DNA from: Axinella damicornis
Taxonomy: Eukaryota > Porifera > Demospongiae > Axinellida > Axinellidae
DNA length: 64,000 bases
Reading direction: 5' to 3'
Assembly: GCA_963931865.1 (NCBI GenBank)
Contig: OZ007511.1
Location: forward strand, 13,956,774-14,020,773
Under the pieces are notes generated by a model. The model did no database searches. It was not told the DNA's origin and saw nothing but the letters and a program-made list of their open reading frames with translations. The position numbers were made by a program, and so were the translations under genes. Shown piece after piece: positions 280 through 60,300 of the stretch. Every line of letters starts with the position of its first letter. The first letter of the stretch is position 1.

Positions 280-3200
280 GGCAACTGTTAATGGAAGCCA
301 GTTTTGGAATGTTACCGAGATTGAGAATGTGTCTGTGTTCTCGATGACATACGACTGGATTGGGGGGCATATCTTCCTGACCGAGGACCATGGCTTCCAG
401 ATAGAGCTGCTCACAATCAATGGAGAGGGGACAGGGTCCTTCCTACTCCACGATGTGCAGCAGACAAGAAATCTCCCTCGTCCGGGTGATGTCGTCTTCG
501 ATATGGATGATAGGTGAGGGGGAGGCAGCAGTGTTATCCCACAGCTGTAGACTTGCTCCATTGATAATGTATGGAGAGCTACAGTGGAATATGGGGCCAT
601 ATTACACTGCCGGTATTCCACTCTTCCTGAGGGTATGAAGTTTACACTGGTCGTGTTTCACGTAAACAGTATGTAGGCATAGTGGCTACACATGCAAGTC
701 ACCAGGTACATGTACGGTACGGTGTATACCGTAGTGTCCCGTTAATACGCCCCCCTATTTTGTACACTACATCCAGCCCAAAGAGGGGAGGTGGCGTATT
801 TTCGAGTACGCAATTAGTCTCGATTATACGCCCCCTCAAAAAGTTTCGCCACGTTTATGACACTGCCAAGGTTCATGTTCACAGTTACAAAAGTACAAAC
901 GGATCGCCAGTACTGTTCGTGGTCATCATGCGTGGGCTCCCTACATCGGCGAGAAGAGCTGCACTTCAACTCGAGGGCTATAACATTCACGACGACTTCC
1001 ACGACTTCGCTGTAAGCCATCCTCAAGAACAGCAATGCTGTCGGTCATGAACCACGGAACATTTCCTGGTATTTCCTACGGAAGAGTGGCAGCGAGATGA
1101 CTTGTACCGTCGGCATCAACGGTGACTACTCGATCTGGGAGACGCCGATCTGCAAAGTTGCGCACGTGTAGGTTTGATATTCCAGAAGACGCTCACCAGG
1201 GGGGGCGTTATAACGAGTCAAACTACCCTGTGCAGGAACTTGGGCGAAAAAGAGGGGGAGGGCGTATTTTCGAAGGGGCGTATTAGCGGGACACTACGGT
1301 ATTATTAGCACTGGAACTAGTACTGAACCAGGTACTGGTACCGGACTCAGAGAAATCGATGTTCGTCGTCAAATGAGTTCTGTGCCTAGTAAGTCGCTCA
1401 AAGACAGTCCTAAAACGGCAGTGTCTTGTTGGTGTTCAAGCAAGAACGAGCGTTGCCAAGTACTACTAAAGTGACGAGTACTGGCGCCGGCACGTCGGGA
1501 CTGGCAACTGTAATAGCTGTAGGACAAATACATTGTTTACCGTGTACTGGGAAACATCACTCGTCTGTTGCCATATTGCCGCAGTAACTGGTAGCCGCAT
1601 TGCAACCGGTTATAACTCACTGGTCGCGCAAGCTACGCGTTGCAGCTCATTCCAATTAACGCACCTGTCACGTGAGGACCATGTTCGGTCGATCGAGTCG
1701 GTAATGGCGTTCAAAGTGCCGTGGTATATATGTATTGTTCATGAAGTGACCCACTCTTCCCTCCCCCTCCTCCTCCTTCTCCTCCCCCTCCTCCTCCTCC
1801 TCCCTCCTGCTCCTCCTCCCTCCTCCCTCCTCCCCCTTCCTTCCTCCTCCTCCCTCCTCCCTCCTCCTCCCTCCTCCTCCTCCTCCTCCCTCCTCCCTCC
1901 TCCTCCCTCCTCCTCCTCCTCCTCCTCCTCCTCCTCCTCTCTTCCTCCCTCCTCTCCTCCTCCTCCCTCCTCACCCATCCCTCCTCCTCCCTCCTCCTCC
2001 CCATCCCTCTCCTCCTCCCTCCTCCCCCTCCTCCTCCTCCTCCCTCCTCTTCCCTCCTCCTCCCCCTCCTCCTCCCCCTCCTGCTCCTCCTCCCTCCTCC
2101 TCCTCCCTCCTCCCTCCTCCCCCTTCCTTCTTCCTCCTCCTCCTTTCTCCTCCTCCCTCCTCCTCCTCCTCCTCCTCCTCTCTTCCTCCTCTCCTCCTCC
2201 CTCCTCTCCTCCTCCTCCCTCCTCTCCCCACACAGTATCCTTTACTGGACCACTCTCGCACGCGGGGGCCTCGGGAGGAGTATCCAGTACATGTCACTGG
2301 ACAACCCCAACGTCACTCGCACTCTCAACGTTTCCGGAAGAACGGATGATCTCATGATTGACAAACTGACCTTTGAACCTTTGATGAAGTCATTATACTG
2401 GATTAACCGCTCAAACTCAACTAACTCCACCATAGAGAGATTTGACATTCAGAGTGGTACTCTTGCCATTATCGCAGCAGACGCAGCACCTGTTTCAGGT
2501 ATATACACCTTTGCCACTACATTACATCACCATTACATCAACATTACATCCCTGGCCATGTTCTTTCATCTGATATCTGCTTTAACCCCTTACAGCCCTG
2601 GCTGCAACGACTGTCAGCCGCCGACCGTATGTGTTCTGGTATAATACGAGGGATCAAGCCATCTACCGCTACGACGGGCAGAGCAGGAACTACGGTCTCT
2701 ACCAGCATTGGACTGCTCCGGGTCCAATAGTTGGCTTCGTGGGCTCGGAGACCCAACCACGTAAGTAGCATGCATGTATGTACTGTACACGCATACACTC
2801 ACACAGCGGGGAGGAGCTGGGGAGGAGCCTGGGAACGAGGCTATACAGTACAATGTATACATGCCACACGTTCTATACACATACAGTATCATAAATGTGT
2901 TCTATTCTATCCCCCCACATGCATGCACCCTCACCCACCCACCCACACACACACACACACACACCACCCACGAACACACACACACACACACCCACACACG
3001 AACACACACACATGTCCCACCTCACACCTGTAGGTGCTGTCCCTCTTCCTTGCCTGAACTCCCCCCGACCTTGCAGCCACCTGTGCATCCAGCAGCACTC
3101 CCCCCCTGGGTACCACTGTGGCTGTCCCTCCAACCGCAATCTTGAGGATAATCGCACATGCTCAGGTATCAGATCCCAGCCTCCTCTGTCTCGGCTTCAT

Positions 3201-6200
3201 ACTGCCCTCAGTGTGCACCATGTCCCATTCCCAGCCTCCTCTGTCCCGGCTTCATACTGCCCTCAGTGTACACCATGTCCCATTCCCAGCCTCCTCTGTC
3301 TCGGCTTCATACTGCCCTCAGTGTGCACCATGTCCCATTCCCAGCCTCCTCTGTCCCGGCTTCATACTGCCCTCAGTGTGCACCATGTCTCATTCCCAGC
3401 CTCCTCTGTCCCGGCTTCATACTGCCCTCAGTGTGCACCATGTCCCATTCCCAGCCTCCTCTGTCCCGGCTTCATACTGCCCTCAGTGTACACCATGTCC
3501 CATTCCCAGCCTCCTCTGTCCCGGCTTCATACTGCCCTCAGTGTGCACCATGTCCCATTCCCAGCCTCCTCTGTCCCGGCTTCATACTGCCCTCAGTGTG
3601 CACCATGTCCCATTCCCAGCCTCCTCTGTCCCGGCTTCATACTGCCCTCAGTGTACACCATGTCTCATTCCCAGCCTCCTCTGTCCCGGCTTCATACTGC
3701 CCTCAGTGTACACCATGTCCCATTCCCAGCCTCCTCTGTCCCGGCTTCATACTACCCTCAGTGTGCACCATGTCCCATTCCCAGCCTCCTCTGTCCCGGC
3801 TTCATACTGCCCTCAGTGTACACCATGTCCCATTCCCAGCCTCCTCTGTCCCGGCTTCATACTGCCCTCAGTGTACACCATGTCCCATTCCCAGCCTCCT
3901 CTGTCCCGGCTTCATACTGCCCTCAGTGTACACCATGTCCCATTCCCAGCCTCCTCTGTCCCGGCTTCATACTGCCCTCAGTGTACACCATGTCCCATTC
4001 CCAGCCTCCTCTGTCCCGGCTTCATACTGCCCTCAGTGTACACCATGTCCCATTCCCAGCCTCCTCTGTCCCGGCTTCATACTGCCCTCAGTGTACACCA
4101 TGTCCCATTCCCAGCCTCCTCTGTCCCGGCTTCATACTGCCCTCAGTGTACACCATGTCCCATTCCCAGCCTCCTCTGTCCCGGCTTCATACTGCCCTCA
4201 GTGTGCACCATGTCCCATTCCCAGCCTCCTCTGTCCCGGCTTCATACTACCCTCAGTGTACATGTACACTGAGGGTAGACCACATAGTTACAGTTTAGCA
4301 GCTAGCTCACGAGAATACATCGCATAATGCTAAGAAGGCACAAGGGCGTTGTTTGCTAATTTTGTGTGGCAGAAGAGCAAGGAACACCGTGAACCTTGAA
4401 CCGTCATCATTCAGTCAGGTCTGTTGGTACGCATATACAGTAGCGGTCAATAAAAAGTTTACGTTCCGTATTCGTTCTACGGTACGGTCCGTTTCCGTTC
4501 TTATTGTACGCAATCCGTCCGTACTACGGTTGCTGAGTCAGCAATTATCTCGTCGTGAGTAAGCGGCCAAGTTCGTCGACCTTTATCTCCGGTTGCAAGT
4601 ATGCTACAGACAAGGGAAAAACGCCAGTGTATAGTTAAGGCCTTCCAATAAGGCATATTTAAAAATCAGCCAAACCTTTCGAGGGATGTGGAAGTTCCAA
4701 GAGCTTTCGCTTGGTGGGTGGGGTTTCGGCAGCGATCGATCGCGTTGCAGCTGTATCTCCGGTTCTGCGAATGCTGCGGACATCGAACAAAGACCGGCAG
4801 GGAGAGAGATCCAGGGCCTAAAACATAACCAAGGTAGAACAGCGTCGGACATAGGCTGCATCCGCTATAAGCGTTAAACGTTTTTACTACGCAAAAACGG
4901 TGCGTATAAACGCTGACGTAGCAATAATTTCACACCGTTTTTTGAGCCGTTTTACTCTGCAGAACGATCGTTGTACGTAAACGGAACGTAAACTTTTTAT
5001 TGACCGCTACTGTACTCGCTGTAGAGCATTCCTATAAATCACGAGGACACTAACAGGACCATGAATGTGCAAACCAGGCGTTGGATTAGCTGGTGGCGCT
5101 GTAGCATGCAGCTCACTCAATGTTGCAATTCAACTGTCCATTTCGACCGTACGCACGTGCGTTTTAAACGGTAAACTTCCGTTTCGTAGTTATTGAACGT
5201 AAAACAGATGCGTTCAATTTGCGTATAAACGCATTGAAATTATGAACGTTTTACACAAACAGAATGGGAACTTTAATTTGGCTCCTACTGTATCTGCTAC
5301 TCTTCTTTTGTAGCTCTGCTCTGTGAAGGGATACAGTCTCCGTGTAACGACGGATTTGGATGCTACCCAACAGCTTACTATTGTGACGGCATCAACCACT
5401 GCCGCAATGGATACGACGAAACTGAATGTACGTCAGTAGCTGTTGAAACACTGATTGTGTGATTGTGTATATAGGTACAAGGTCTTCTTACCCCATTCCC
5501 CTTTTTACCTTCTTACCTCCAATTCTCCATCTCTATCCTCTCTCTGTCTCTCTCTCTCTCTCGTCTCTCTTTCTCACTCTCTCACTCACTCTCTCTCTCT
5601 CTCTCTCTTGCTAGGCCCATGTGACACCACATACCAAAGAGGGTGTCCCAAATCAAACGTCTGTCTGACTAACACCTCGTGGTGTGATGGCGAACAAAAC
5701 TGTCCCGACGGGGAGGACGAGTCTCCAGATAGCTGCTGCCTCTCACCCCTGTTTGGCTGTTACGTGGGAGGTTCTCTCCGGTGCTTGCAGCCTAGCGTCA
5801 TTTGCGATGGCATGAGTGATTGTGATAATGGAAAAGACGAGGCGGACGATATGTGTTAGTCATGCTTAGCCCATTGTGCATGTGCCCTCACTCCGTTCTC
5901 CATAGATACAGTGTCCTACATATTCCCAGGCTCCTAGGTGCAGATTCCCAGCCAGGCTCCTAGGGTGCATATTCCCAGTCATCAGGCCTCCTAAGTGTCC
6001 ACTACACGGCTGGACTATTTATCTGCATTTTTACTGCGTGCAGTGAATAGCTTTAGTTGGAAATCAAGGATGTAATCTGTGATGTACGTGTAATCCATGA
6101 TGTAATCTGTGATGGCCGTTCCTTCTCTCCCTGCAGGTCCCGACCCCACTAACCCTCGTTCCTCTCCAACGACCTCCCCACCTACTCCCACCAGCTCCCC

Positions 6201-11946: not shown

Positions 11947-13351
11947 CTAAGAATTTACAGTCACACTACACACCCGAAGCCGCAACTTGGATGGAGTTGG
12001 TGACAGGTCATCAAGTGGGATGCACCTCACACAGCCTTGCCCAAAGTCATTCCTCACACCCCAGGTAACTCTATCGGCAGCTTTGGCAGGGGATCGGGAT
12101 GTAAACTTCAATGTTTCGTTGTACTCTTCATCCTCGGTACGCACTTCAACCTCCAGGTGACCTCGAAATGGCCAATCCAACTCATCATCAAATTCACCTT
12201 TCATCACATTGGCAAAAACTGAAACATACTCACCTTTAGCCTGACCAGTGCCATAAGCAAAAACACTCAGGCACATCTTGTACCCTTCTTCGTGGGTGTA
12301 GAATGGCTAACTGAACCATTGGTCCTCCAAGTCGTAGTGGCCGTCAAAGTCTGTCATGACAAAATCTATAGGAGGAAGCTTAACTTTTCTCTCTACGTCT
12401 AGCACCCTTGTTTTCATTTGCCGAATTTCACCTTGTAAGAGTGGGATAGTCGTAGTTTTGCTCTCTACGTCTAGCACCCTTGTTTTCAACTGCTGAATTT
12501 CACCCTGTAAGAGTTGAATACTAGTGTAGCTTTGCCAGCGCTTTGTCTTTAACCTCCAGTTTTTCTGTGAAATGACTGCAGACAGAGGGAATCAAAGCAA
12601 CATGTGACAGCACACTCTCTTTCAGGTGTTGAGGCATCTCTTTTCGTAAAACCTTGACTCCACAGCCAGCAACACTAAACTCACACTCAATCACCTCCAA
12701 AGGACACTCACGGAGGTGCGTTGGAAGGTCCTTGCGTTTAATGGGACCAATTTCACAGCCATTAAGGCACTCTACAGGATAAGATGCACACTGTGGCCAG
12801 TGCTCCTCCGTGATAACAGCGTAAGCAGCATGAAGATCACAATAGGGGCACACGTATGGACGATTATAGCAAAGGTTTGCCTTATGATCGGATAGGCGAC
12901 AGCGTGGCAAGGTGGTGCCACAATGGAAGCTGCATGTGACTTCCACGAAATCACAGGTACTGTCCATATGGTCTCGAGATTCACCCAGTTCACCAACCCA
13001 CATACAGCCCTGATCCTTGTTAGGGCAACGAACTTTCAGCTGCTTGACTCGCCTCATGACGGACTTATCCAGCATGACAGTGTAGTCTTGGCTCTGGCAC
13101 AGGGGGCACGGCTTGCCCTCCCTTCGGATCCTCTCGATACATTCCTGGCAGAAGTGGTTGCCACAGCAGCTGGTGAGGATTGGGTTGCAGAAGACGGACA
13201 GGCATACAGAGCAATGCAGCTCCTCCGAAGGATTTTCCACGAACTCAAAATCGTCCGGATCGATGCTACTCACAGAACTGAGCAAACTGTCATTCAGGCA
13301 TACTGGTGGCTTCGAGTCTGTCATGATCAAACAACAGTTACTGTCAGCCAT
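11947..13351 (-). pseudogene. Decayed TRAF-like gene (RING, TRAF zinc fingers, remnant MATH)
   Basis: This is a close paralogue of the intact gene at 15178-16737. From the ATG at 13351 the frame encodes a C3HC4 RING (CSVCLSVFCNP...CPLC) and TRAF-type zinc fingers. It then breaks near 12528 (KALAKLH then stop), where one base is out of phase and much of the coiled coil is missing. A second in-frame stop (TAG) at about 12308 replaces a Glu in QWFSEPFYTH. The remaining MATH domain (MCLSVFAYGTGQ...CSVTVNS) is well preserved to 11947. Alternatively a shortened RING/zinc-finger protein of about 275 residues without MATH is still made and could act dominantly; the sequence cannot decide this. Confidence 0.8.
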
Positions 13352-15177: not shown

Positions 15178-16737
15178 CTAAGAATTTACCGTCACGCTAC
15201 ACACCCGAAGCCGCAGCTTGGATGGCAGTGGTGATAGATCATCGTGCGGGATGCACATTGAACAACCTTGCCCAAAGTTATTCCTTTCACCGTAGTGAAC
15301 TCTACCAGCAGCCTTAGCAGGGGATCGCGACGTAAACTTGAATGTTTCTTCGTAGCACTCACTGTCGCCAACATCCATTTCAACTTCAATATAACCTTGA
15401 AACGGCCAGTCCAATTCGTCATCAAATTCTCCTCTCGTCATGTTGGCAAAAACTGAAATATATTCACCTTCAGCTTGACCAATGCCATTTGCGAAAACAC
15501 TCAGGCACATCTTGTACCCTCTTTCGTGGGTGTAGAATGGCTCGCTGAACCATTGGTCTTCCCAGTACAAGTGGTTCTGAAAGTCTTTCATGACGAAGTC
15601 TATAGGAGGAAGCTTAATTTTTATCTCTACGTCTTTGACCTTTGTTTTTAGTTGGCGAATTTCACCCTGTAAGAGAGAGACAGTAGGAGGAAGCTTAGTT
15701 TCGCTCTCGACATCTCGCACTCTTTTCTTCAGCTGTTGGATTTCACCTTGTAACAGTTGGATTGTAGGAGGAAGCTTAGTTTCACTCTCTACATCTCGCA
15801 CTCTTTTCTTCAGCTGTTGGATTGTAGTCCGCAGGTTGTGTGTTTCTCTTTCATGAGCCTGCTGCTTCAGGACAAACTCAGAGCGTAGCTCTGCCAACGC
15901 TTTGTCCTTAATCTCAAGTTTTTCCGCCAACACTTTGTCTTTAATCTCCAGGTTTTCCGCAAAGCGACTGCAGATGGTAGGAATCAAAGCAACATGTGAC
16001 AGCACACTCTCTTTCAGGTGTTGAGGCATCTCTTTTCGCGAAACCTTAACTCCACAGCCAGCAACACTAAACTCACACTCAATCACCTCCAAAGGACACT
16101 CACGGAGGTGCGTTGGAAGGTTCTTGCGTTTAATGGGACCAATTTCACAGCCATTAAGGCACTCTACAGGATACGATGCACACTGTGCCCAGTGCTCCTC
16201 CGTGATGACAGCGTAAGCAGCATGAAGATCGCAATAGGGGCACATGTAGGGACGATTGTAGCAAAGGTTTGCCTTATGATCCGATAGGTGACAGCGTGGC
16301 AAGGTGGTGCCGCAATGGAAGCTGCATGTGACCGCCACAAAATCACAGGTGCTGTCCATATGGTCTCGAGATTCACCCAGTTCACCAACCCACATACAGC
16401 CCTGATCCTTGTTAGGGCAACGAACTCTCAGCTGTTTGACTCGCCTCATGACGGACTTATCCAGCATGACCGTGTAGTCTTGGCTCTGGCACAGGGGGCA
16501 CGGCCTACCGTCGCTTCGGATCCTCTCGATACATTCCTGGCAGAAGTGGTTGCCACAGCAGCTGGTGAGGTTTGGGTTGCAGAAGACGGACAGGCACACA
16601 GAGCAATGCAGCTCCTCGGAAGGATTCTCCACCAAGTCAAATTCGTCCGGATCGACGCTACTCACGGTACTGAGCGAACTGTCATTCTGGGGCTCAGAGT
16701 CAAAATCCCCCCTTGTTGCCATGATGGACCGGACCAT
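15178..16737 (-). CDS. TRAF-like RING/zinc-finger/coiled-coil/MATH protein (intronless)
   Basis: A single exon encodes 519 residues. A second in-frame ATG five codons later (MATRGDFD) may be the real start. Domains: C3HC4 RING at about 45-83 (C45, C48, C60, H64, C66, C69, C80, C83), TRAF-type zinc fingers at 105-245, a coiled coil at 258-375 and a MATH/TRAF-C domain at about 377-517 ending CSVTVNS. The coil contains near-identical repeats of about 27 residues (LKKRVRDVESETKLPPT, LLQGEIQQ). TRAF proteins form trimers through the coil and MATH domain, bind receptor tails and act as RING E3 ubiquitin ligases in NF-kB/JNK signalling. Function here is inferred from this architecture. It is a tandem paralogue of the pseudogene at 11947-13351. 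Lack of introns suggests retroposition or an intronless subfamily. Confidence 0.87.
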   Translation of the reverse strand: MVRSIMATRGDFDSEPQNDSSLSTVSSVDPDEFDLVENPSEELHCSVCLSVFCNPNLTSCCGNHFCQECIERIRSDGRPCPLCQSQDYTVMLDKSVMRRVKQLRVRCPNKDQGCMWVGELGESRDHMDSTCDFVAVTCSFHCGTTLPRCHLSDHKANLCYNRPYMCPYCDLHAAYAVITEEHWAQCASYPVECLNGCEIGPIKRKNLPTHLRECPLEVIECEFSVAGCGVKVSRKEMPQHLKESVLSHVALIPTICSRFAENLEIKDKVLAEKLEIKDKALAELRSEFVLKQQAHERETHNLRTTIQQLKKRVRDVESETKLPPTIQLLQGEIQQLKKRVRDVESETKLPPTVSLLQGEIRQLKTKVKDVEIKIKLPPIDFVMKDFQNHLYWEDQWFSEPFYTHERGYKMCLSVFANGIGQAEGEYISVFANMTRGEFDDELDWPFQGYIEVEMDVGDSECYEETFKFTSRSPAKAAGRVHYGERNNFGQGCSMCIPHDDLSPLPSKLRLRVCSVTVNS

Positions 16738-48236: not shown

Positions 48237-49907
48237 ATGGCTTCCAAGTCTGACTCCCAGTTTTGTTGTGCTGAAAATCTTTCTGATTATCAGCCATCCT
48301 CTTCTCTCGGAGTACCCACGGTGGCTCCAGAACCAGTCCAGAAAGAGTACGATTTTGTTGAAGAGCCGCCGCCAGAGTACTTTTGCCCCGTCACTTACGA
48401 GCTACTCAGTGACCCCCAACAAACGAGATGTTGCGGAAACCTGCTGTCCGGAGAAGTCGTATCCAGGCTCCAGCGAGAAGGAAAAGCGTGCCCACTATGT
48501 AGCAATCCTAGCTTCACAGTCACCGATGACAAGCACTTTAAACGCAAGGCGAATGAGTTGAAAGTGCGCTGCCCCCACAAGCGAAACGGATGTGAGTGGG
48601 TGGGGGAGCTGGGTAATTCAGACCAGCATTCCAACTCGTGTCCCAAGCGTCCTTGGCAGTGCAAGCATTGTGATTTTGAGGGAATTTACGATGTCGGAAC
48701 TTCTGACCACTTGCCCAACTGCACAAAGTACCCTGAGCCGTGTCCCAACCGGTGTGACATTGGCACTGTACCTCGCTATGACATGGGGAAGCATTTGACC
48801 CAGTGTCCACTGCAGCTGGTGGAGTGTGAATTTGCCCAAGCTGGTTGCCAAGTGAGGCTTCCTCGACGGGTCCTGGCACGTCACGTGGAGGAGGAGGGCC
48901 AGCGTCACCTGCTGAGCATGTCCCTCCTCAACCTCGGTCTGACCAGGGAGCTCCACCAGAAGATGGCCGAGAAGGATCAGCAGATAGCAGAGCTGCAGGA
49001 ACAACTGCAGCAACAGAGCAGTAAGCTGGAGAAACAATTTCAGGAAATCAAAGATCTTCAGAAACAGTGCAAACAAACAGACGAACAGTTAGAATTGGGG
49101 TTCAGTGGGATCCGAGGTGAAATCCAAAAATTGGATGTAGATCTCCGGCAAAAGATTCAACAGCAAGCTAAACAAATTGCGGGAGTGCATGAGCAGCTTC
49201 AACAGAAATTGACTGGACAGCGAATGGAAACAGAAAAACAAATTACGGGAGTGCACGAGCAGCTTCAACAGAAATTGACTGGACAGCAAATGGAAACAGA
49301 AAAACAAATTACGGGAGTGCACGAGCAGCTTGAGCAGAAATTGACCGGACTGCAAACACTGCTTCAGAATGAGAACGAAATGTTACGGAAGACGTTACAG
49401 CAGCAAGTGCAAGAACAGGGTAAACAGATTCATGACTCTCTGTGTGTACTTAGAGGTTTCAGTCCTCCTTTCAAGACGACTCTAACTAAATTCAGTGTGC
49501 ACCGGGCTGGAGGAGTGCATGGTAGGTGGAAAAGTGATCCATTCTACTCCCACACTGGAGGCTACAAGTTCCTGCTGGGCGTTGACACTAATGGGTGGGA
49601 GGACGCCCGGGGTACTCACATCACCGCAGACTTCATCTCAATGAATGGTGAATATGATGACAACCTGTCCTGGCCCATTCAGATCACAGCCCACCTCCAG
49701 CTCCTCAACCAGAGGGGAGACCATGGACACATGGTTGCAACTCTCAACCGCAGAGGAGTTGGTAAGGCAACTGGCTACATAGAAATCGCCCGGAAATTTA
49801 TTGCACATTCTGAACTGGAGTATAATGCAGAAAAGAATACCGAGTACTTGAAAGAAGACTGCTTATGTTTTCAATTGTATCTGAAAGTGGACCCCCAAAC
49901 TTATTGA
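48237..49907 (+). CDS. TRAF-like protein with atypical RING, TRAF zinc fingers, long coiled coil and MATH
   Basis: A single exon encodes 556 residues from the ATG at 48237. Residues 48-88 are a RING-like fold (EYFCPVTYELLSDPQQTRCC ... CPLC) that lacks the second Cys and the central His-x-Cys pair of a canonical RING, so zinc binding is probably reduced and the fold may be U-box-like. TRAF-type zinc fingers cover about 110-225. A long coiled coil covers 236-405 and contains three 22-residue repeats (GVHEQLQQKLTGQ, METEKQIT). The MATH/TRAF-C domain is about 412-552 (FSPPFKTTLTKFSVHRAG to FQLYLKVD). I infer an oligomeric adaptor or E3 in immune signalling. Its paralogues follow at 52854 (nonsense-bearing) and 55134 (MATH replaced). 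It differs clearly from the 15178 TRAF type. Confidence 0.87.
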   Translation: MASKSDSQFCCAENLSDYQPSSSLGVPTVAPEPVQKEYDFVEEPPPEYFCPVTYELLSDPQQTRCCGNLLSGEVVSRLQREGKACPLCSNPSFTVTDDKHFKRKANELKVRCPHKRNGCEWVGELGNSDQHSNSCPKRPWQCKHCDFEGIYDVGTSDHLPNCTKYPEPCPNRCDIGTVPRYDMGKHLTQCPLQLVECEFAQAGCQVRLPRRVLARHVEEEGQRHLLSMSLLNLGLTRELHQKMAEKDQQIAELQEQLQQQSSKLEKQFQEIKDLQKQCKQTDEQLELGFSGIRGEIQKLDVDLRQKIQQQAKQIAGVHEQLQQKLTGQRMETEKQITGVHEQLQQKLTGQQMETEKQITGVHEQLEQKLTGLQTLLQNENEMLRKTLQQQVQEQGKQIHDSLCVLRGFSPPFKTTLTKFSVHRAGGVHGRWKSDPFYSHTGGYKFLLGVDTNGWEDARGTHITADFISMNGEYDDNLSWPIQITAHLQLLNQRGDHGHMVATLNRRGVGKATGYIEIARKFIAHSELEYNAEKNTEYLKEDCLCFQLYLKVDPQTY

Positions 49908-52853: not shown

Positions 52854-54344
52854 ATGGCTTCCAAATTTGGCTCCCAGTCCTGTTGTGCTGAAAACCTTGG
52901 TGATTGTCAGCCATCCGCTCCTCCCGGAGTATCCACGGAGGTCCAAGCTCCAGACCCAGTCCAGATAGAGTACGATTTTGTTGAAGAGCCGCCGCGAGAG
53001 TACTTTTGCCCCGTCACTTTCGAGCTACTCAGTGACCCCCAACAAACGAGATGTTGCGGGCACCTACTGTCAGGAAAAGTCGTGTCCAGGCTCCAGCGAG
53101 AAGGAAAATCCTGCCCACTATGTAACGATCCTAACTTCACAGTCACCGATGACAAATATTTTAAACGGAAGGCAAATGAGTTGAAAGTGCGCTGCCCCCA
53201 CAAGTGAAGCGGATGTAAGTGGGTGGGGGACCTGGGTAATTTAAACCAGCATTCCATCTCGTGTCCCAAGCGTCCATGGCAGTGCAAGCATTGTGATTTC
53301 GAGGGAACGTATGATGTTGGAACTACTGACCACTTGCCCAACTGCACAAAGTACCCTGAGCCGTGTCCCAACCAGTGTGAGATTGGCACTCTACCTCGCT
53401 GTGACATGGAGAAACATTTGACCCAGTGTCCACTGCAGCTGGTGGAGTGTGAGTTTGCTAATGCTGGTTGCCAAGTAAGGGTTCCTCGACGGGACCTGGC
53501 TCGTCACATGGAGGAGGAGAGCCAGTGTCACCTGCTGAGCATATCCCTCCTCAACCTCGGTCTGACCAGGGACCTACACCAGAAGATGGCCGAGAAGGAT
53601 CAGCAGATGGCAGAGCTGCAGGAACAGAGCAGTAAGCTGGAGAAACAGATCAAAGACCTTCAGGAACGAACAGAGAAACAGCTGCAAACACAGTTAGCAG
53701 ATCTCCAGCAAAAGCAAGCTAAACAGATTACGGGAGTGCACGATCAGCTTAAACAGAAATTGATTGACCAGCGAAAGGAAACAAAAGAACAAGTTACTGG
53801 ACTGCAAACACTGCTTCAGAACGAAAATAAAACATTACAGCAGCAAGTGCAAGACCAGGGTAAACAGATTCATGACTCTCTGTGCTTACTTACTGGTTTC
53901 AGTCCTCCTATCAAGATCACTTTAACTAAATTCAGTGTGCACAAGGCCAGCGGAGCGTGGGGTAGGTGGTACAGTGAACCGTTCTACTCCCACACTGGAG
54001 GCTACAAGTTCCAGCTGTGCATTGACACTATTGGGTATATGGAAGCCCGGGGTACTCACATCACAGCATGGCTCTTCTCAATGAGAGGTGAGTATGATGG
54101 CAACCTGTCCTGGCCCATTCAGATCACAGCCCACCTTCAGCTCCTCAACCAGAAGGGAGACCACCAACACATGGTGGCACGTCAAATGTTCAATGGAGTT
54201 GCTAAGGTAAGTATCCACAGAGAAATTGCCAAGAAATTCATCGCACACTCTGAACTGGGATATAATGCAGCAAAAGACACTCAGTACTTGAAAGATGACT
54301 GCTTGCATTTTCAGTTGTACCTCAAAGTGGACCCCCAAAATTAG
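52854..54344 (+). pseudogene. TRAF-like paralogue interrupted by one in-frame stop
   Basis: From the ATG at 52854 to the stop ending at 54344 the frame matches the gene at 48237 throughout: RING-like domain, zinc fingers, a shorter coiled coil and MATH. The only interruption is TGA at 53205-53207, where the intact paralogue has CGA (Arg) in CPHKRNGCEWVG. That is a single CpG transition and no other break is seen. The 118-residue upstream piece would keep the RING-like domain only. It could be a recent pseudogene, a polymorphic null allele or an assembly error. Confidence 0.85.
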
Positions 54345-54942
54345 CATTGTCTAATTAATTAGCATGACTGTATAATTAGTGTCTTGTTATAATATTATTT
54401 TGTGTAAATAGTCTCATTCCTGCATTTCAGTTGGTATTTACATGTAATGTAGAATGTGGAACAACAATAGGTGAACTTGTGAGCATGAATTGTGAGAATA
54501 TAGCCTGGGCCTGCAAGAGTACATTGACACATGCACCGGCCTCTCAGTAGAGCTAGGGGAGTGTCTCAAGCACATGCAGTGGAGTGTTATTATTACATGT
54601 AGACACTAAATATTGCCTGGATATTCAATCATTGCACATGCACTGATGCAGAAAACTACTCCGTTAACGTTCTTGAGTAGGTAAAGCTGATGTTTAGTTT
54701 TGACTGTGCTACAAAATTAGACCGGCATAAATTGAATATCCATAAGGGGTCTTATCCAGCTCCTAGCATGCAGCTAAATAAAGTGCTTTTAGTATGCCTC
54801 TTGAGATGACACTCCATCCACTACCATAACAACAAAAATTTGGTACACTGCAGCTGCATGTAGTGATCAAGGTGGGAATGTCTTATATAGTATACAGGAG
54901 CTGCATGTAGGCTACAGCCATGTGGGTTCTATGATCATTGTA

Positions 54943-55040
54943 CTTTCAGTCTCCCAGTGATTGGCGAAGGTTACCACTGAACACGTTCACGTAGATGTGA
55001 CTGGCATGGATTAACCTCCACTGGGAGAGAGTGAAAGAGG
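54943..55040 (-). pseudogene. Duplicated fragment of a TTC6-like exon
   Basis: The minus strand here reads CTCTCCCAG then TGGAGGTTAATCCATGCCAG, matching the acceptor and exon of the TPR gene at 58149-58051 (TGGAGGCCAACCCCTATGCC). The match continues through ATCACTGG with small indels that break the frame. It lies between the TRAF pseudogene and the TRAF fusion gene. Confidence 0.8.
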
Positions 55041-55133
55041 AGAACGACAGACTTCAGAGTTGTTTTGTTTTAACAAATGATACTAAATAAAAGTTCACAT
55101 CGATACACAATGGAGGCTATGCATGGTCAGGAC

Positions 55134-56975
55134 TCAGGAGATGGCACAGTCTTGATGGGGTCGGTTGCGACCGTTGATGTGATGGAGTTTGAACATTTCC
55201 CATGGACCAGCTCCGAACTGGCAGTTGACTGTTCCCCCACCGGGACCAACGGATTCAGTGACTCCATTGCCATCCATACGGAGGTAGACTCCAGGAAATT
55301 GAGCAGACTCGATAGAGTAGTTGCAACTGCCGACGTGATTGACTTTGAACATTTCCCATGGGCCAGCTCTGAACTGGCAGTTGACAACTCCCCCACCGGG
55401 ACCAACAAATCTGGTGACTCTATTGCCATCCATTCGGAGGTAGACCCCAGGAAATTGCACAGACTCGATGGAGTAGTTGCAACTGTCAGTGTGATAAATG
55501 AGTTCGAACTCTTCCCATGAACCAGCTCCGAACTGGCAGTTGACTGTTCCTCCACCAGGACCAACAGATTCAGTGACTCCATTGCCATCCATGCGGAGGT
55601 AGACACCGGGAAACTGCACAGATTCGAATGTGTATGTCCCACTGGGGAGGCAGGCTCCGCCTGGAAATTGAGCAGACTTGATGGAATTGTCGACGTTAAA
55701 CTTTTCCAATGGGCCAGCAGATTCAATGGAGTTGTTGCAACTGTCAATGTGATTGAGTTTAAACTCTTCCCATGGGCCAGCTCCGAACTGGCAGTTGACT
55801 GTTCCTCCGCCAGGAGCAACAGATTCAGTGACTCCATTGCCATCCATGCGGAGGTAGACTCCAGGAAACTGCACGGATTCGATCGTGTATGTCCCACTGG
55901 GGAGGCTGGCTCCTGGAAATTTAGCAGATTTGATGGAACTGTCGATGTTGAACTTTTCCCATGGGCCAGCTCCGAACTGGCAGTTGACAACTCCCCCACC
56001 GGGACCAACAAATCTGGTGACTCTATTGCCATCCATACGGAGGTAGACCCCAGGAAATTGCACAGACTCGATGGAGTAGTTACAACTGTCGGCGTGATAA
56101 ATGAGTTCGAACTCTTCCCATGGACCAGCTCCGAACTGGCAGTTGACTGTTCCCCCACCAGGACCAACAGATTCAGTGACTCCATTGCCATCCATGCGGA
56201 GGTAGACTCCAGGAAACTGCACAGATTCGAATGTGTATGTCCCACAGTATTCCCCTTGTATTTCGCCTTGGAAATCTGACTCGAATTCTGACTCAAGAAC
56301 TGTTTGTAGCTGTTTCTCTATTCGTTTGCACTGTCCCTGAAGGTCTTTGATTTGCTTTTCCAGCTTACTGCTCTGTTCCTGCAGTTGTTCCTGCAGCTCT
56401 GCTATCTGCCGATCCTTCTCGGCCATCTTCTGGTGGAGCTCCCTAGTCAGACTGAGGTTGAGGAGGGACATGCTCAGCAGGTGACGCTGACCCCCCTCCT
56501 CCATGTGACGAGCCAGGTCCCGTCGAGGAACCCTCTCATGGCAACCAGCTTGGGCAAACTCACACTCCACCAGCTGCAGTGGACACTGGGTAAAATGCTT
56601 CCCCATGTCACCCAGTTCCCCCACCCACTCGCATCCGTTCCGCTTGTGGGGGCAGCGCACTTTCAACCCATTCACCTTGCGTTTAAAATGCTTGTCATTG
56701 GTAACGGAGATGTTAGGATCGTTACACAGTGGGCACGGTTTTCCTTCTCGCTGGAGCCTGGATACGACTTCTCTCGCCAACTGACGCCCGCAACAGTCTG
56801 TTTTCTGGGGTTCACTGAGTAGCTCGAAAGTGACGGGGCAAAAGTACTCTCGCGGCGGCTCTTCAACAAAATCGTACTCTATCTGGACTGGTTCTGGAGC
56901 TTGGACCTCCGTGGATACTCCGGGAGGAGCGGATGGCTGATGATCAGCACAACAGGAACCAGATTTAGAAGCCAT
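55134..56975 (-). CDS. TRAF-type RING/zinc-finger/coiled-coil protein with six C-terminal beta-trefoil-like repeats in place of MATH
   Basis: A single exon encodes 613 residues from the ATG at 56975. Residues 1-226 match the TRAF genes at 48237 and 52854: an atypical RING (about 43-84), a shortened TRAF zinc-finger block (about 105-165; some 55 residues are deleted after WVGELG) and a coiled coil (about 176-226). From residue 245 the MATH domain is replaced by six full repeats of about 52 residues, each with SVQFPGVYLRMDGN, then GPGGGxVNCQFGAGPWExF. A degenerate half-repeat (SIESAGPLEKFNVDN) lies between the third and fourth. The pattern of a GVYLRMDG strand followed by a GPWExFEL strand recalls beta-trefoil modules (fascin-like or carbohydrate-binding), and six repeats would make two trefoils. 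This is inference without a search. I suggest an intracellular ligand- or glycan-sensing adaptor. Confidence 0.85.
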   Translation of the reverse strand: MASKSGSCCADHQPSAPPGVSTEVQAPEPVQIEYDFVEEPPREYFCPVTFELLSEPQKTDCCGRQLAREVVSRLQREGKPCPLCNDPNISVTNDKHFKRKVNGLKVRCPHKRNGCEWVGELGDMGKHFTQCPLQLVECEFAQAGCHERVPRRDLARHMEEGGQRHLLSMSLLNLSLTRELHQKMAEKDRQIAELQEQLQEQSSKLEKQIKDLQGQCKRIEKQLQTVLESEFESDFQGEIQGEYCGTYTFESVQFPGVYLRMDGNGVTESVGPGGGTVNCQFGAGPWEEFELIYHADSCNYSIESVQFPGVYLRMDGNRVTRFVGPGGGVVNCQFGAGPWEKFNIDSSIKSAKFPGASLPSGTYTIESVQFPGVYLRMDGNGVTESVAPGGGTVNCQFGAGPWEEFKLNHIDSCNNSIESAGPLEKFNVDNSIKSAQFPGGACLPSGTYTFESVQFPGVYLRMDGNGVTESVGPGGGTVNCQFGAGSWEEFELIYHTDSCNYSIESVQFPGVYLRMDGNRVTRFVGPGGGVVNCQFRAGPWEMFKVNHVGSCNYSIESAQFPGVYLRMDGNGVTESVGPGGGTVNCQFGAGPWEMFKLHHINGRNRPHQDCAIS

Positions 56976-57338
56976 TTGTCAATTTTGCCAATGAGGGGGT
57001 GTGGCTAGAATGCGATATGCTGCGCGCGCGCGTTCCACAGAGAGCGGGAAGTTTGAAGTAATTGTCAAGACCAATGCATCCGCAGTTGAATATTATAAGC
57101 CTCTTTGAGATCATGATTACACTCGATCCCTCCAAATTATATAGAACAACACAAAAGCTACTGGACTCTATGTACAGTGATCAAGGTGGGCACGTGCCAT
57201 GCAGTACAGAGAAATGCATGCAGTGAAAAAGTCTTACAGAGAGGAGCGATACAGTGAAAGGTGGATAGAAGCACAGAGAGTAGGTATAGTGGAGAGAAAC
57301 ACACAGAGAGACGGGCAGTGTCCATTGCATGCGGAGGG
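56976..57338. other. Spacer between TRAF fusion start and TTC6-like gene end
   Basis: This short interval holds the fusion gene's presumed promoter, including a CG-rich run (TGCGCGCGCGCG near 57020), and the 3' flank of the TPR gene. No gene recognised. Confidence 0.45.
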
Positions 57339-60300
57339 CTATGTCCCACCGTGCTCTAGTTCTGCAGCCATTCTAAACATTTCAACTGCCTCTTGAGGCT
57401 GCTTGCTGAGACCTCCGAGGCAGTACATCGTCACCCAGTCACACGGCTCCAACTCGAGAGCTGGAGGACAAAACAACAAAACATTTTATTCTTATAGACC
57501 TTATTCTGCTCCAGGTTTCAGTTGCTATGACAACAACGAACACCTTGTACCCATTGCTCACCATGCAGATAGGCTGCATCCAAGATTTGAAGCAAATCAG
57601 ATACACAGTGTCTGAATCCCAAAATTCAGAATTTACCCATGAAGCCCATACAAAATCTGTTGGAGGCGCCTCCAGTGGAAGGATTTCTATGGGCTTCAAT
57701 AGGGAAATCAATTTTGGGAGGCCATAACTCGGACACTATACAACTGATTTACTTCACATCTGGGATGCAGCCTATCTGCATGGTGACCAATGGGTACAAG
57801 GTGTTGTTGTTGTCATAGCAACAGAAACCTGAATTTCAATTTAGCAGAACAAGGTGTATTGAAGACCAAAACAAGTACATCGTCAGTCAGCAGAGAGTCA
57901 GCGGTGTGGGCCAATCAGCAAACTGGTTATACTGTTGGCACTGCTGTAACTGGATGTTGCAAGGTCGCTGAAATTCGATCAAGATCTTCAAGACCTCACA
58001 AAACTGGGAATAACAATCCAGTCGTGCTTAGAGCCTAGCCATGAAGCTACCTTTTCTATAATCATCTTCTGCCCTTTCAAAGTCCTCCAGTGATCGGTGC
58101 AGGTTGCCTCTGTTGAAGTAGATGTGAGCGGCATAGGGGTTGGCCTCCACTGGGAGAGAATGAAAACAGAACGACGAGTTGTTCAGTCAACCAATGATAT
58201 TAAACCAACACTATCAGTGAAATTCACATTAATACGCAGATATGGTTTGTGTACCCAACACAAGTCAAGGCAGTTCTTTTCGCCACAATTCAGCTACTTT
58301 CTATTGTCAGTTCATTGACTTTACCCGCTTCAAATTTGCATGTATGTGATAGCTACATGTAGCATAACCACACCGCACTGCACCGAGTGCACCACACAGT
58401 GGTGGAGTAAGCATTCCACACACTAGCTACTGATAGGTCTTTACACATACATAAACGTCCCAAGAAGAGTATATATTCATTGAAGACTAGCTAACCTGCT
58501 TGGGCCAGCTACATCCGGGTTGGCCAGCTACATGCCTTAGCTAACCTGCTTGAAGCATTTTTGGGACACACTGACTGACAGACACAATTGCTAACCTAGT
58601 TTTGGATGCTAAGTAGGTGTCAGGAATGACGTTAGCTGGATTATGGTACAATCTCAGACAACATGCTCAGTGCAGAACTCACAAGCTTTGTCAAAGTCCT
58701 CCATTGCATTATCCAGTTCCCCCAGCATCGTGTATGCAATTGCTCTATTGACAAGACACGAGTCATCGTCTTCTGAGCTTCCAAGTGCTTTTGTGTACTG
58801 TGAAACAGCCTAAAAATACAAAACAAACACATCGGGATCATTGCCAGGCAATCATCTCAGGTCGTTCAACAGCTTCTCTGAGCTTCAATGGCAGATCATA
58901 GACCTTCACCTGTTGCAGTGAAACCATCCACCACCTCACCTGTTGCACTGAAACCCTCCACCATCTCACCTGTTGCAGTGAAACCATCCACCATCTCACC
59001 TGTTTGAACAGCTTCTGCTGGAAGAGGACATTTCCAGCATTGAAGTGTGCGAGGGAGTAGCGTGGGTCCAGTTTGGTTGCTCTTTGGTAGTCCTGCAGTG
59101 CACTCGCAACATCTCCCATGAACTGGTGGATGACCCCCCTGTTGGTGTACAGCACAGCACTGGGAGACACCTGGAATGGAACCAGATAAGTGGTATGGGA
59201 TGGAGTCAAAATGGTACGGAATGGAATGGAATGGAATGGAATGGAGATGAGGTATGAAATTCGAAACAGGACAGCGCAGTAGAGTCAACCACAAGGAGTA
59301 CTGACAAGGTAATGTGGAGTACCTGCAATGCAGTGTTGATGTCCAGCAGTGCTCCAAAGAGATTGCCCATCTGCAGACTAATGATTGCACGGGCTTCAAG
59401 TGCTGGCACATAGCCTGCAAGGGGGGGGGGGGGGGAGGAGGGAGGGAGGGAGGGAGGGAGGGAGGGAGGGAGGGAGGGAGGGAGGGAGGGAGGGAGGGAG
59501 GGAGGGAGGGAGGGAGGGAGGGAGGGAGGGAGGGAGGGAGGGAGGGAGGGAGGGAGGGAGGGAGGGAGGGAGGGAGGGAGGGAGGGAGGGGGGAGGAGGG
59601 GGGAGGGAGGGAGAGGAAGGAAGAGGACTCAAGGTACTGCAATCACACACTGCTAATTCAGTTGCATTCCTCACATTTGTCCCTCTCCAGGGTGTCTGAG
59701 AGTTCATCCCATGCCCACTGGAATCTACCTTCTGCCTGGTGGAGGAAGGCCAGGTTGACACGTGCTGGGAGGTAGTCTGCATCCAGCTCAAGAGTTCGGA
59801 GATAGTCAGCCCTGGAAAATATGAGAGGTGCACATTGAGTGATACTGCTACCTTGACTGATCGTAGTGCCACAATTCATCCCTGTAGACATGAAATGACA
59901 GAGCCAATTCTTCAGTTAGTAGTCTTTTTCCCCTCTATCTCTTTCTCTTTCTCTCTCTCTCTCTCTTCCCTCCCTCTCTCCTCCATCCCTCCCCCCATCC
60001 CTCCCTCGTCTGTGAGTCCATCCATCCGTCCCTCCCTTCAGCTCATGATAGTTTGTGCACCTGCTCCTGCTGTTCCCCTCGTCGGTGAGGTAATCCATGT
60101 AGACGTTCCCCCTCCCCACATATCCCTCCAGGAAGTCAGGGTCCAGACACAGTGCCTCAGAGTAGGCTTCGATGGCAGAGTCCAGTGCTCCAAGCCTTGG
60201 AGGGAGGGAGGGAGGGAGGGAGGGAGGGAGGGAGGGAGGGAGGGAGGGAGGGAGGGAGGGAGGGAGGGAGGGAGGGAGGGAGGGAGGGAGGGAGGGAGGG

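Follow-up and report, generated by a model that had tools for sequence, protein, structure and literature searches.

The open reading frame at 55134-56975 encodes a protein in which a TRAF-like base is joined to an array of six full repeats that stand, from residue 244, in place of the MATH domain. It lies in a window of 64,000 nucleotides (the whole stretch of Axinella damicornis DNA that was analysed, G000:C7:13956774-14020773) and runs on the minus strand from ATG to stop over 613 codons; its position and fully open frame had been called correctly by the first-pass annotation, made from the letters of the window without database searches. The domain architecture of this fusion gene is well supported, and from it we infer a fold, a ligand and a mode of signalling. 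On balance we read the product as a TRAF-like adaptor, probably cytosolic, whose MATH domain was exchanged for a fascin-like trefoil array, so that a coiled-coil scaffold would be retargeted to carbohydrate, and we regard this reading as evenly poised between right and wrong. For relatives within the species we searched its genome of 226.5 Mb in 120 contigs, and the features of the gene are collected in the table.

Features of the fusion gene and of its stand-alone relatives (positions in the window unless a locus is named)
Feature	Position	Strand	Remarks
Whole fusion gene, 613 codons and stop	55134..56975	-	Single frame; G000:C7:14011910-14013748
Degenerate RING-like region, about residues 34-90	56706..56876	-	CPVT/CCGR/CPLC
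Chimeric TRAF zinc finger, residues 108-131	56583..56654	-	Finger 1 front and finger 3 back; contains the 55-column deletion
Last TRAF zinc finger, residues 138-165	56481..56564	-	
Residues 166-240, aligned to where the long coiled coil of the paralogues starts	56256..56480	-	Putative coiled coil, by eye and analogy
Fusion breakpoint	56245..56256	-	DNA homology: MATH paralogue to gene nt 720, stand-alone trefoil gene from nt 731
Repeat R1, residues 244-297	56085..56246	-	
Repeat R2, residues 298-345	55941..56084	-	
Short remnant/linker, 15 residues (346-360)	55896..55940	-	
Repeat R4, residues 361-412	55740..55895	-	
Internally deleted repeat, 17 residues (413-429)	55689..55739	-	
Short remnant/linker, 16 residues (430-445)	55641..55688	-	
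Repeat R7, residues 446-498	55482..55640	-	DNA 96% identical to R1
Repeat R8, residues 499-550	55326..55481	-	DNA 94% identical to R2
Repeat R9 and C-terminal tail, residues 551-613	55137..55325	-	
Stand-alone repeat genes, single frame, about 160 codons	L002:1498-1977 (-), L004:1510-1998 (+), L007		

TRAF-like base and repeat array

Residues 1-240 form a TRAF-like base, to which five paralogues of the same genome that bear MATH are closely related. The RING half was 75-83% identical to all five intact paralogues, which bears out the kinship with neighbouring TRAF genes that had been proposed for the N-terminal half, and the finger-4/coiled-coil half was 80-87% identical to four of the five among the 18 rows listed, the fifth (C7_14061100) lying outside these. 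The N-terminus also matched the RING-zinc-finger structures of TRAF5 and TRAF6 (best E 9.4e-08). By eye, no signal peptide is apparent. The TRAF-type repertoire of this genome is very large, with 106 places matching the fusion protein, several per gene and many in tandem clusters (on C7, C9, C14 and other contigs). In the window, further TRAF-type loci lie at 12055-13333 (-), 15376-16734 (-) and 48237-49907 (+), the last being an intact 556-codon MATH TRAF gene, and a neighbouring MATH TRAF gene at 52854-54344 (+), tail-to-tail with the fusion gene, is open except for one in-frame TGA (53205-53207).

Comparison of the base with its paralogues and with P0002, a database protein of the same architecture, showed where it has changed. 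A regular expression for TRAF-type zinc fingers found four patterns in each of the five intact paralogues and two in both the fusion gene and P0002. In these two, the first finger begins as finger 1 and ends as finger 3, and the gap covers the same 55 alignment columns. Pfam zf-TRAF scored 24.8 bits (E 3.6e-05) on the fusion gene, under the curated cut-off of 27, and 28.6 bits on P0002. The RING is degenerate in all seven aligned rows (C-P-V-T, C-C-G-x, C-P-L-C), x being Arg in the fusion gene, His in P0002 and four others, and Asn in P0121; no RING family was among the 25 of 34 Pfam matches listed for the fusion gene. Of the RING-like/zinc-finger base of the first-pass annotation, the TRAF-type character thus stood and the intactness did not, as the RING is degenerate and two of four finger patterns are lost. 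Because of this degeneracy, a ubiquitin-ligase activity of the protein's own is doubtful. The region placed by alignment with the coiled coil of the paralogues is a putative oligomeriser.

These features are where the main rival explanation finds its support. As a regulator or decoy, the fusion protein would join MATH TRAFs via its coiled coil and dampen or relocate them, its trefoils serving as a localisation or stability module. The loss of half the finger patterns, a degenerate RING whose Arg corresponds to a His in P0002 and in four further rows, and a coiled-coil half so close to those of four paralogues would all suit such a role. However, the RING marks no special loss, as its degeneracy is mostly common to the MATH paralogues, and the repeats have kept their WExF motif in all six copies and show unit Ka/Ks values against the stand-alone genes (below), which is more than would seem necessary in a simple tag. 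We therefore consider a regulator of the MATH paralogues unlikely, with roughly one chance in its favour for every three against it.

The array consists of six full repeats of about 52 residues each (R1, R2, R4, R7, R8 and R9), along with three remnants that are 15, 17 and 16 residues long; six repeats of this length had been noticed at first pass, together with a single degenerate one where we find the three remnants. Tandem Repeats Finder picked up a stretch of it at 55179-55627 (period 156, score 640), and a repeat search recovered six in-register copies of 166 nt, the other five being 79-86% identical to the reference copy, so that the repeats are far beyond chance. A 298-nt block spanning R7-R8 was 97% identical to R1-R2. 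As R1 and R7 share 96% and R2 and R8 share 94% of their DNA, the gene has duplicated a block of two repeats internally. Elsewhere in the window, at 3174-4262, a 55-bp unit is repeated in tandem (19.8 copies, 98% matches).

In P0002, the six full repeats fall into two complete sets of three, and MAFFT aligned R4 with its third repeat. Two of the remnants of the fusion gene reach an LPSG, whose counterpart is the SIPSG with which the stand-alone proteins begin; a linker comparable to these LPSG remnants lies between the two trefoils of P0002. As the fusion gene, like P0002, has six full repeats, we infer that R1-R2-R4 and R7-R8-R9 may each close one three-leaf trefoil, with the remnants as loops.

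Fusion junction, relatives and constraint

The junction is sharp. DNA homology passes from the paralogue C7_14055688 to the stand-alone repeat gene L002 within a breakpoint confined to about 11 nt. The fusion gene, P0002 and the intact MATH paralogues are each one open frame, which reduces the worry that a splice junction lies at the fusion point. The first-pass annotation had the MATH domain gone after the coiled coil, and neither line of search recovered it: MATH was absent among the 25 of 34 Pfam matches listed for the fusion gene, and tblastn with the MATH domains of two paralogues against 54345-58000 gave one 24-residue noise match (E 0.99). With no relic in 54345-58000, a MATH domain pushed downstream by an insertion was rejected, as was a MATH or RING remnant inside the repeats, none being among those Pfam matches; the same result speaks against repeats that are themselves a degenerate MATH domain, one of the alternatives that the annotation had named against its own proposal.

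In the A. damicornis genome, six places match the repeats, three inside the fusion gene and three in stand-alone frames (L002, L004 and L007). L002 lies 11 kb from the fusion gene, on the same strand and within the TRAF cluster; L002 and L004 have, by eye, a TATA-like leader before the ATG in common. A search with the N-terminus found 296 proteins, of which the 120 listed comprise the fusion gene, P0002 and 118 others, four of these being genes of the same genome; TRAF5-like proteins of Halichondria panicea are among the relatives (37-42% identity). A search with the repeat region found 272 proteins; besides the two fusion proteins, the 120 listed here include 118 others, which are 33-68% identical. 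Pattern scans detected the repeat in 0/118 of the other N-terminus relatives listed and the TRAF zinc-finger pattern in 0/238 of the other proteins in two listings of repeat relatives, which leaves P0002 as the one further case among the matches listed. Looking elsewhere for a TRAF N-terminus with this repeat, as had been suggested at first pass, was thus rewarded once.

P0002, encoded on a contig of 3144 bp, comprises a TRAF base and two complete trefoils and was 62% identical to the fusion gene over 611 aligned columns. We take it to be from another species, as no such copy was among the matches in the A. damicornis genome. Both proteins share the junction EIQG[E/Q]YCGTYTFESV as well as the zinc-finger deletion, which shows that the fusion is no one-off and argues for one origin of the two. 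A further protein, P0240 (218 residues, partial, on an 853-bp contig), contains one complete three-repeat set as well as the inter-trefoil linker; it is perhaps another gene of the fusion kind, its N-terminus lying outside the contig.

To compare constraint, we used Ka/Ks, given here as point estimates. The fusion N-terminus against the five paralogues gave 0.32-0.52, somewhat above most of the ten paralogue pairs (0.24-0.51), and the fused units, one of the two being R1, R2 and R4 joined, gave 0.25-0.34 against the three stand-alone genes (six pairs). As a second protein has the same fusion and Ka/Ks is below 1, the fusion gene is probably functional, in agreement with the earlier expectation from the open frame. 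A functionless accidental chimera, a recent recombination product of the tandem cluster, would account for the in-frame losses in the repeat blocks, the recent internal copying, the in-frame stop of the neighbouring TRAF gene and the somewhat raised N-terminal Ka/Ks. Yet an open frame of 613 codons, a relative, 62% identical, that shares both the deletion and the junction, and Ka/Ks point estimates well below 1 are hard to reconcile with it, and we hold it to be improbable.

Trees left the two fusion proteins unpaired. In N-terminal trees, the fusion gene and P0002 stood on unresolved branches or apart, and they did not pair in the repeat-unit tree either. The RING half of the fusion gene is nearer to its own paralogues than to P0002 (73%), which might reflect gene conversion in the tandem cluster. 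In the repeat-unit tree, fused and stand-alone units belonged to a 14-row group (92/87) close to bacterial rows, and three rows assigned to Ephydatia (one from the name given by its source, two from our reading of Em labels) stood elsewhere with P0279 (100/99). As this tree is unrooted and its bootstrap unsettled, it does not show a direction of gene transfer.

Repeat family and the WExF motif

The repeats are members of a fascin-like family, probably of beta-trefoil fold and widespread in bacteria as well, and the trefoil likeness (fascin or carbohydrate-binding) suspected at first pass has held up to this extent. Among the 120 of 272 repeat relatives listed, the named ones are bacterial or, in some cases, fungal and are joined to tyrosinase, C1A peptidase, Vps62 and other domains; some of the bacterial ones are named 'fascin domain-containing protein' by NCBI, and one relative is a protein of Ephydatia muelleri. 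Together with the Ephydatia relatives, the stand-alone genes point to a family in sponges with close ties to the fascin-like domains of bacteria. AbfB and RicinB_lectin_2 are trefoil families, and among 64 stand-alone rows scanned with Pfam (L002, L004 and 62 of the 120 relatives in a second listing) they matched 51/64 and 14/64, respectively. This support for a trefoil is weak, as non-trefoil families also match some relatives (PhaG_MnhG_YufB, 10/64). Among solved structures, none of which matched strongly, the family profile came nearest to the AbfB entry 3kmv (E 8e-5), and a search of solved structures with the fusion gene's own repeats gave no match. On the fusion gene, AbfB (PF05270) reached 60 bits against a cut-off of 22.8, but its best stretch covered 25/137 positions, short matches adding up.

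An AbfB scan of the A. damicornis genome returned 12 other places, the fusion gene not among them; these twelve matches, apart from the fusion repeats, lie two at each of six sites (on C2, C8 and C11; L027-L036) in open frames of 141-306 codons. Matches of the repeats to TATA-binding protein and PhaG/MnhG (Pfam, NCBIfam) were taken as repeat-composition noise, and PADLOC found no anti-phage defence family for the repeats (0 matches for 4 proteins).

By hhalign, similarity to the genome's AbfB domains had a probability of 21%, and similarity to its fascin domains, in the same register, had probabilities of 35% and 61.5%. This weak likeness, and the fascin label on some bacterial relatives, would fit repeats that bind actin or another protein as fascin trefoils do, in a structural or cytoskeletal role instead of a sugar-binding one. 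Against such a role, Fascin PF06268 was absent among the 25 of 34 Pfam matches listed for the fusion gene (the genome scan placed it at 9 other places), the bacterial relatives are attached to enzymes such as tyrosinases and peptidases, and WExF is a motif of carbohydrate-binding kin. We see little prospect for the cytoskeletal explanation, about as little as for the chance chimera.

WExF is kept in all six full repeats (6/6), which is not independent evidence, as the six are partly recent copies. Its Trp occurs in 3/6 repeats of P0002 and 0/3 of L002, so the kin as a whole do not conserve the motif. W is the first letter at 124/207 sites among the repeat-region relatives listed and at 115/247 in the second listing of relatives. 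Successive motifs are 52 residues apart in 160/244 spacings counted, and a three-repeat unit measures about 155-160 residues. The GPWExF motif noticed at first pass corresponds to the WExF of the carbohydrate-binding family CBM92, whose Trp and Glu are described as holding the sugar, on the evidence of mutagenesis and crystals, with a preference for beta-1,6-glucans (PMC11039641). In Hydra PPOD, which binds sulfated glycans, WExF is described as the proposed binding site (PMC3531485). By analogy with these, the WExF clefts of the fusion protein may bind carbohydrate; a microbial or algal polysaccharide, glucan-type or other, is a candidate ligand. An Arg placed near WExF in both CBM92 and PPOD has no obvious counterpart in the fusion repeats, as judged by spacing and by eye.

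Membership of CBM92 is set at an identity of at least 37% with the family. Entry 7zoh, which we take to be a CBM92 structure, was reached at E 1.3 with one bacterial relative and did not appear among the matches up to E 10 for either of two family profiles or for another relative.

A candidate carbohydrate sensor among known systems

TRAFs normally read receptor tails through MATH, and a TRAF base with its own lectin-like array would bypass the receptor. In the mechanism that we propose, the six repeats would fold as two trefoils displayed on a coiled-coil TRAF base, with WExF clefts that bind carbohydrate as in CBM92 and PPOD. The coiled coil would oligomerise the chain, alone or with similar MATH paralogues, and a polymeric ligand could then cluster the zinc-finger base, leading to TRAF-type signalling or to marking of the ligand. 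The first step, a base displaying sugar-binding trefoils, rests on sequence, and the later steps rest on analogy. Overall, the fusion suggests a sensor inside the cell for microbial carbohydrate. More specifically, and tentatively, since we think this narrower proposal somewhat more apt to fail than to hold, it may be an intracellular carbohydrate receptor of a sponge lineage, in which MATH was swapped for bacterial-type, CBM92-like trefoils and microbial or algal polysaccharide is sensed directly, with no upstream receptor. Carbohydrate sensing by a TRAF would thereby become testable with one recombinant protein. The case would also be one of a repeat family shared with bacteria being recruited into a TRAF cluster, with stand-alone kin still close by.

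We found no description of a TRAF base with trefoil repeats in the titles and abstract starts listed by searches of open-licence literature, and each part of the fusion protein has its own nearest known system. For the repeats, these are CBM92 and the bacterial fascin-like domains, with which they share the three-repeat unit and a WExF that ends each repeat, the bacterial kin being on secreted enzymes. In CBM92, however, the domain is described as 125-150 residues long and the motif of CpCBM92A as spaced by 42 (W481/W523/W565) (PMC11039641), both shorter than in the fusion repeats; no structure match to CBM92 was significant, and CBM92 sits on a hydrolase whereas the fusion repeats sit on a TRAF base. 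Hydra PPOD, compared by description only, is like the fusion gene in its WExF motif and its six repeats, which are said to form two tandem trefoils and are likewise related to bacterial domains and labelled 'fascin' by NCBI (PMC3531485). Unlike the fusion protein, with its TRAF base and repeats of about 52 residues, PPOD is secreted with a signal peptide and has repeats of about 40 residues.

For the base, the TRAF1-6 family is alike in its N-terminal part, and close MATH paralogues of the fusion gene lie in the same cluster, whereas the fusion protein has no MATH, two finger patterns instead of four, a degenerate RING and trefoil-type repeats at its C-terminus. TRAF7 is not known to have a TRAF-C domain. 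It is described as carrying C-terminal WD40 repeats (PMC6158389) and, compared by description only, is alike as a TRAF with another C-terminal repeat domain, although its repeats are WD40 instead of fascin-like; it is thus the precedent for a TRAF base with C-terminal repeats. In plant F-box lectins, as described, a lectin is joined to the ubiquitin machinery (PMC12355970).
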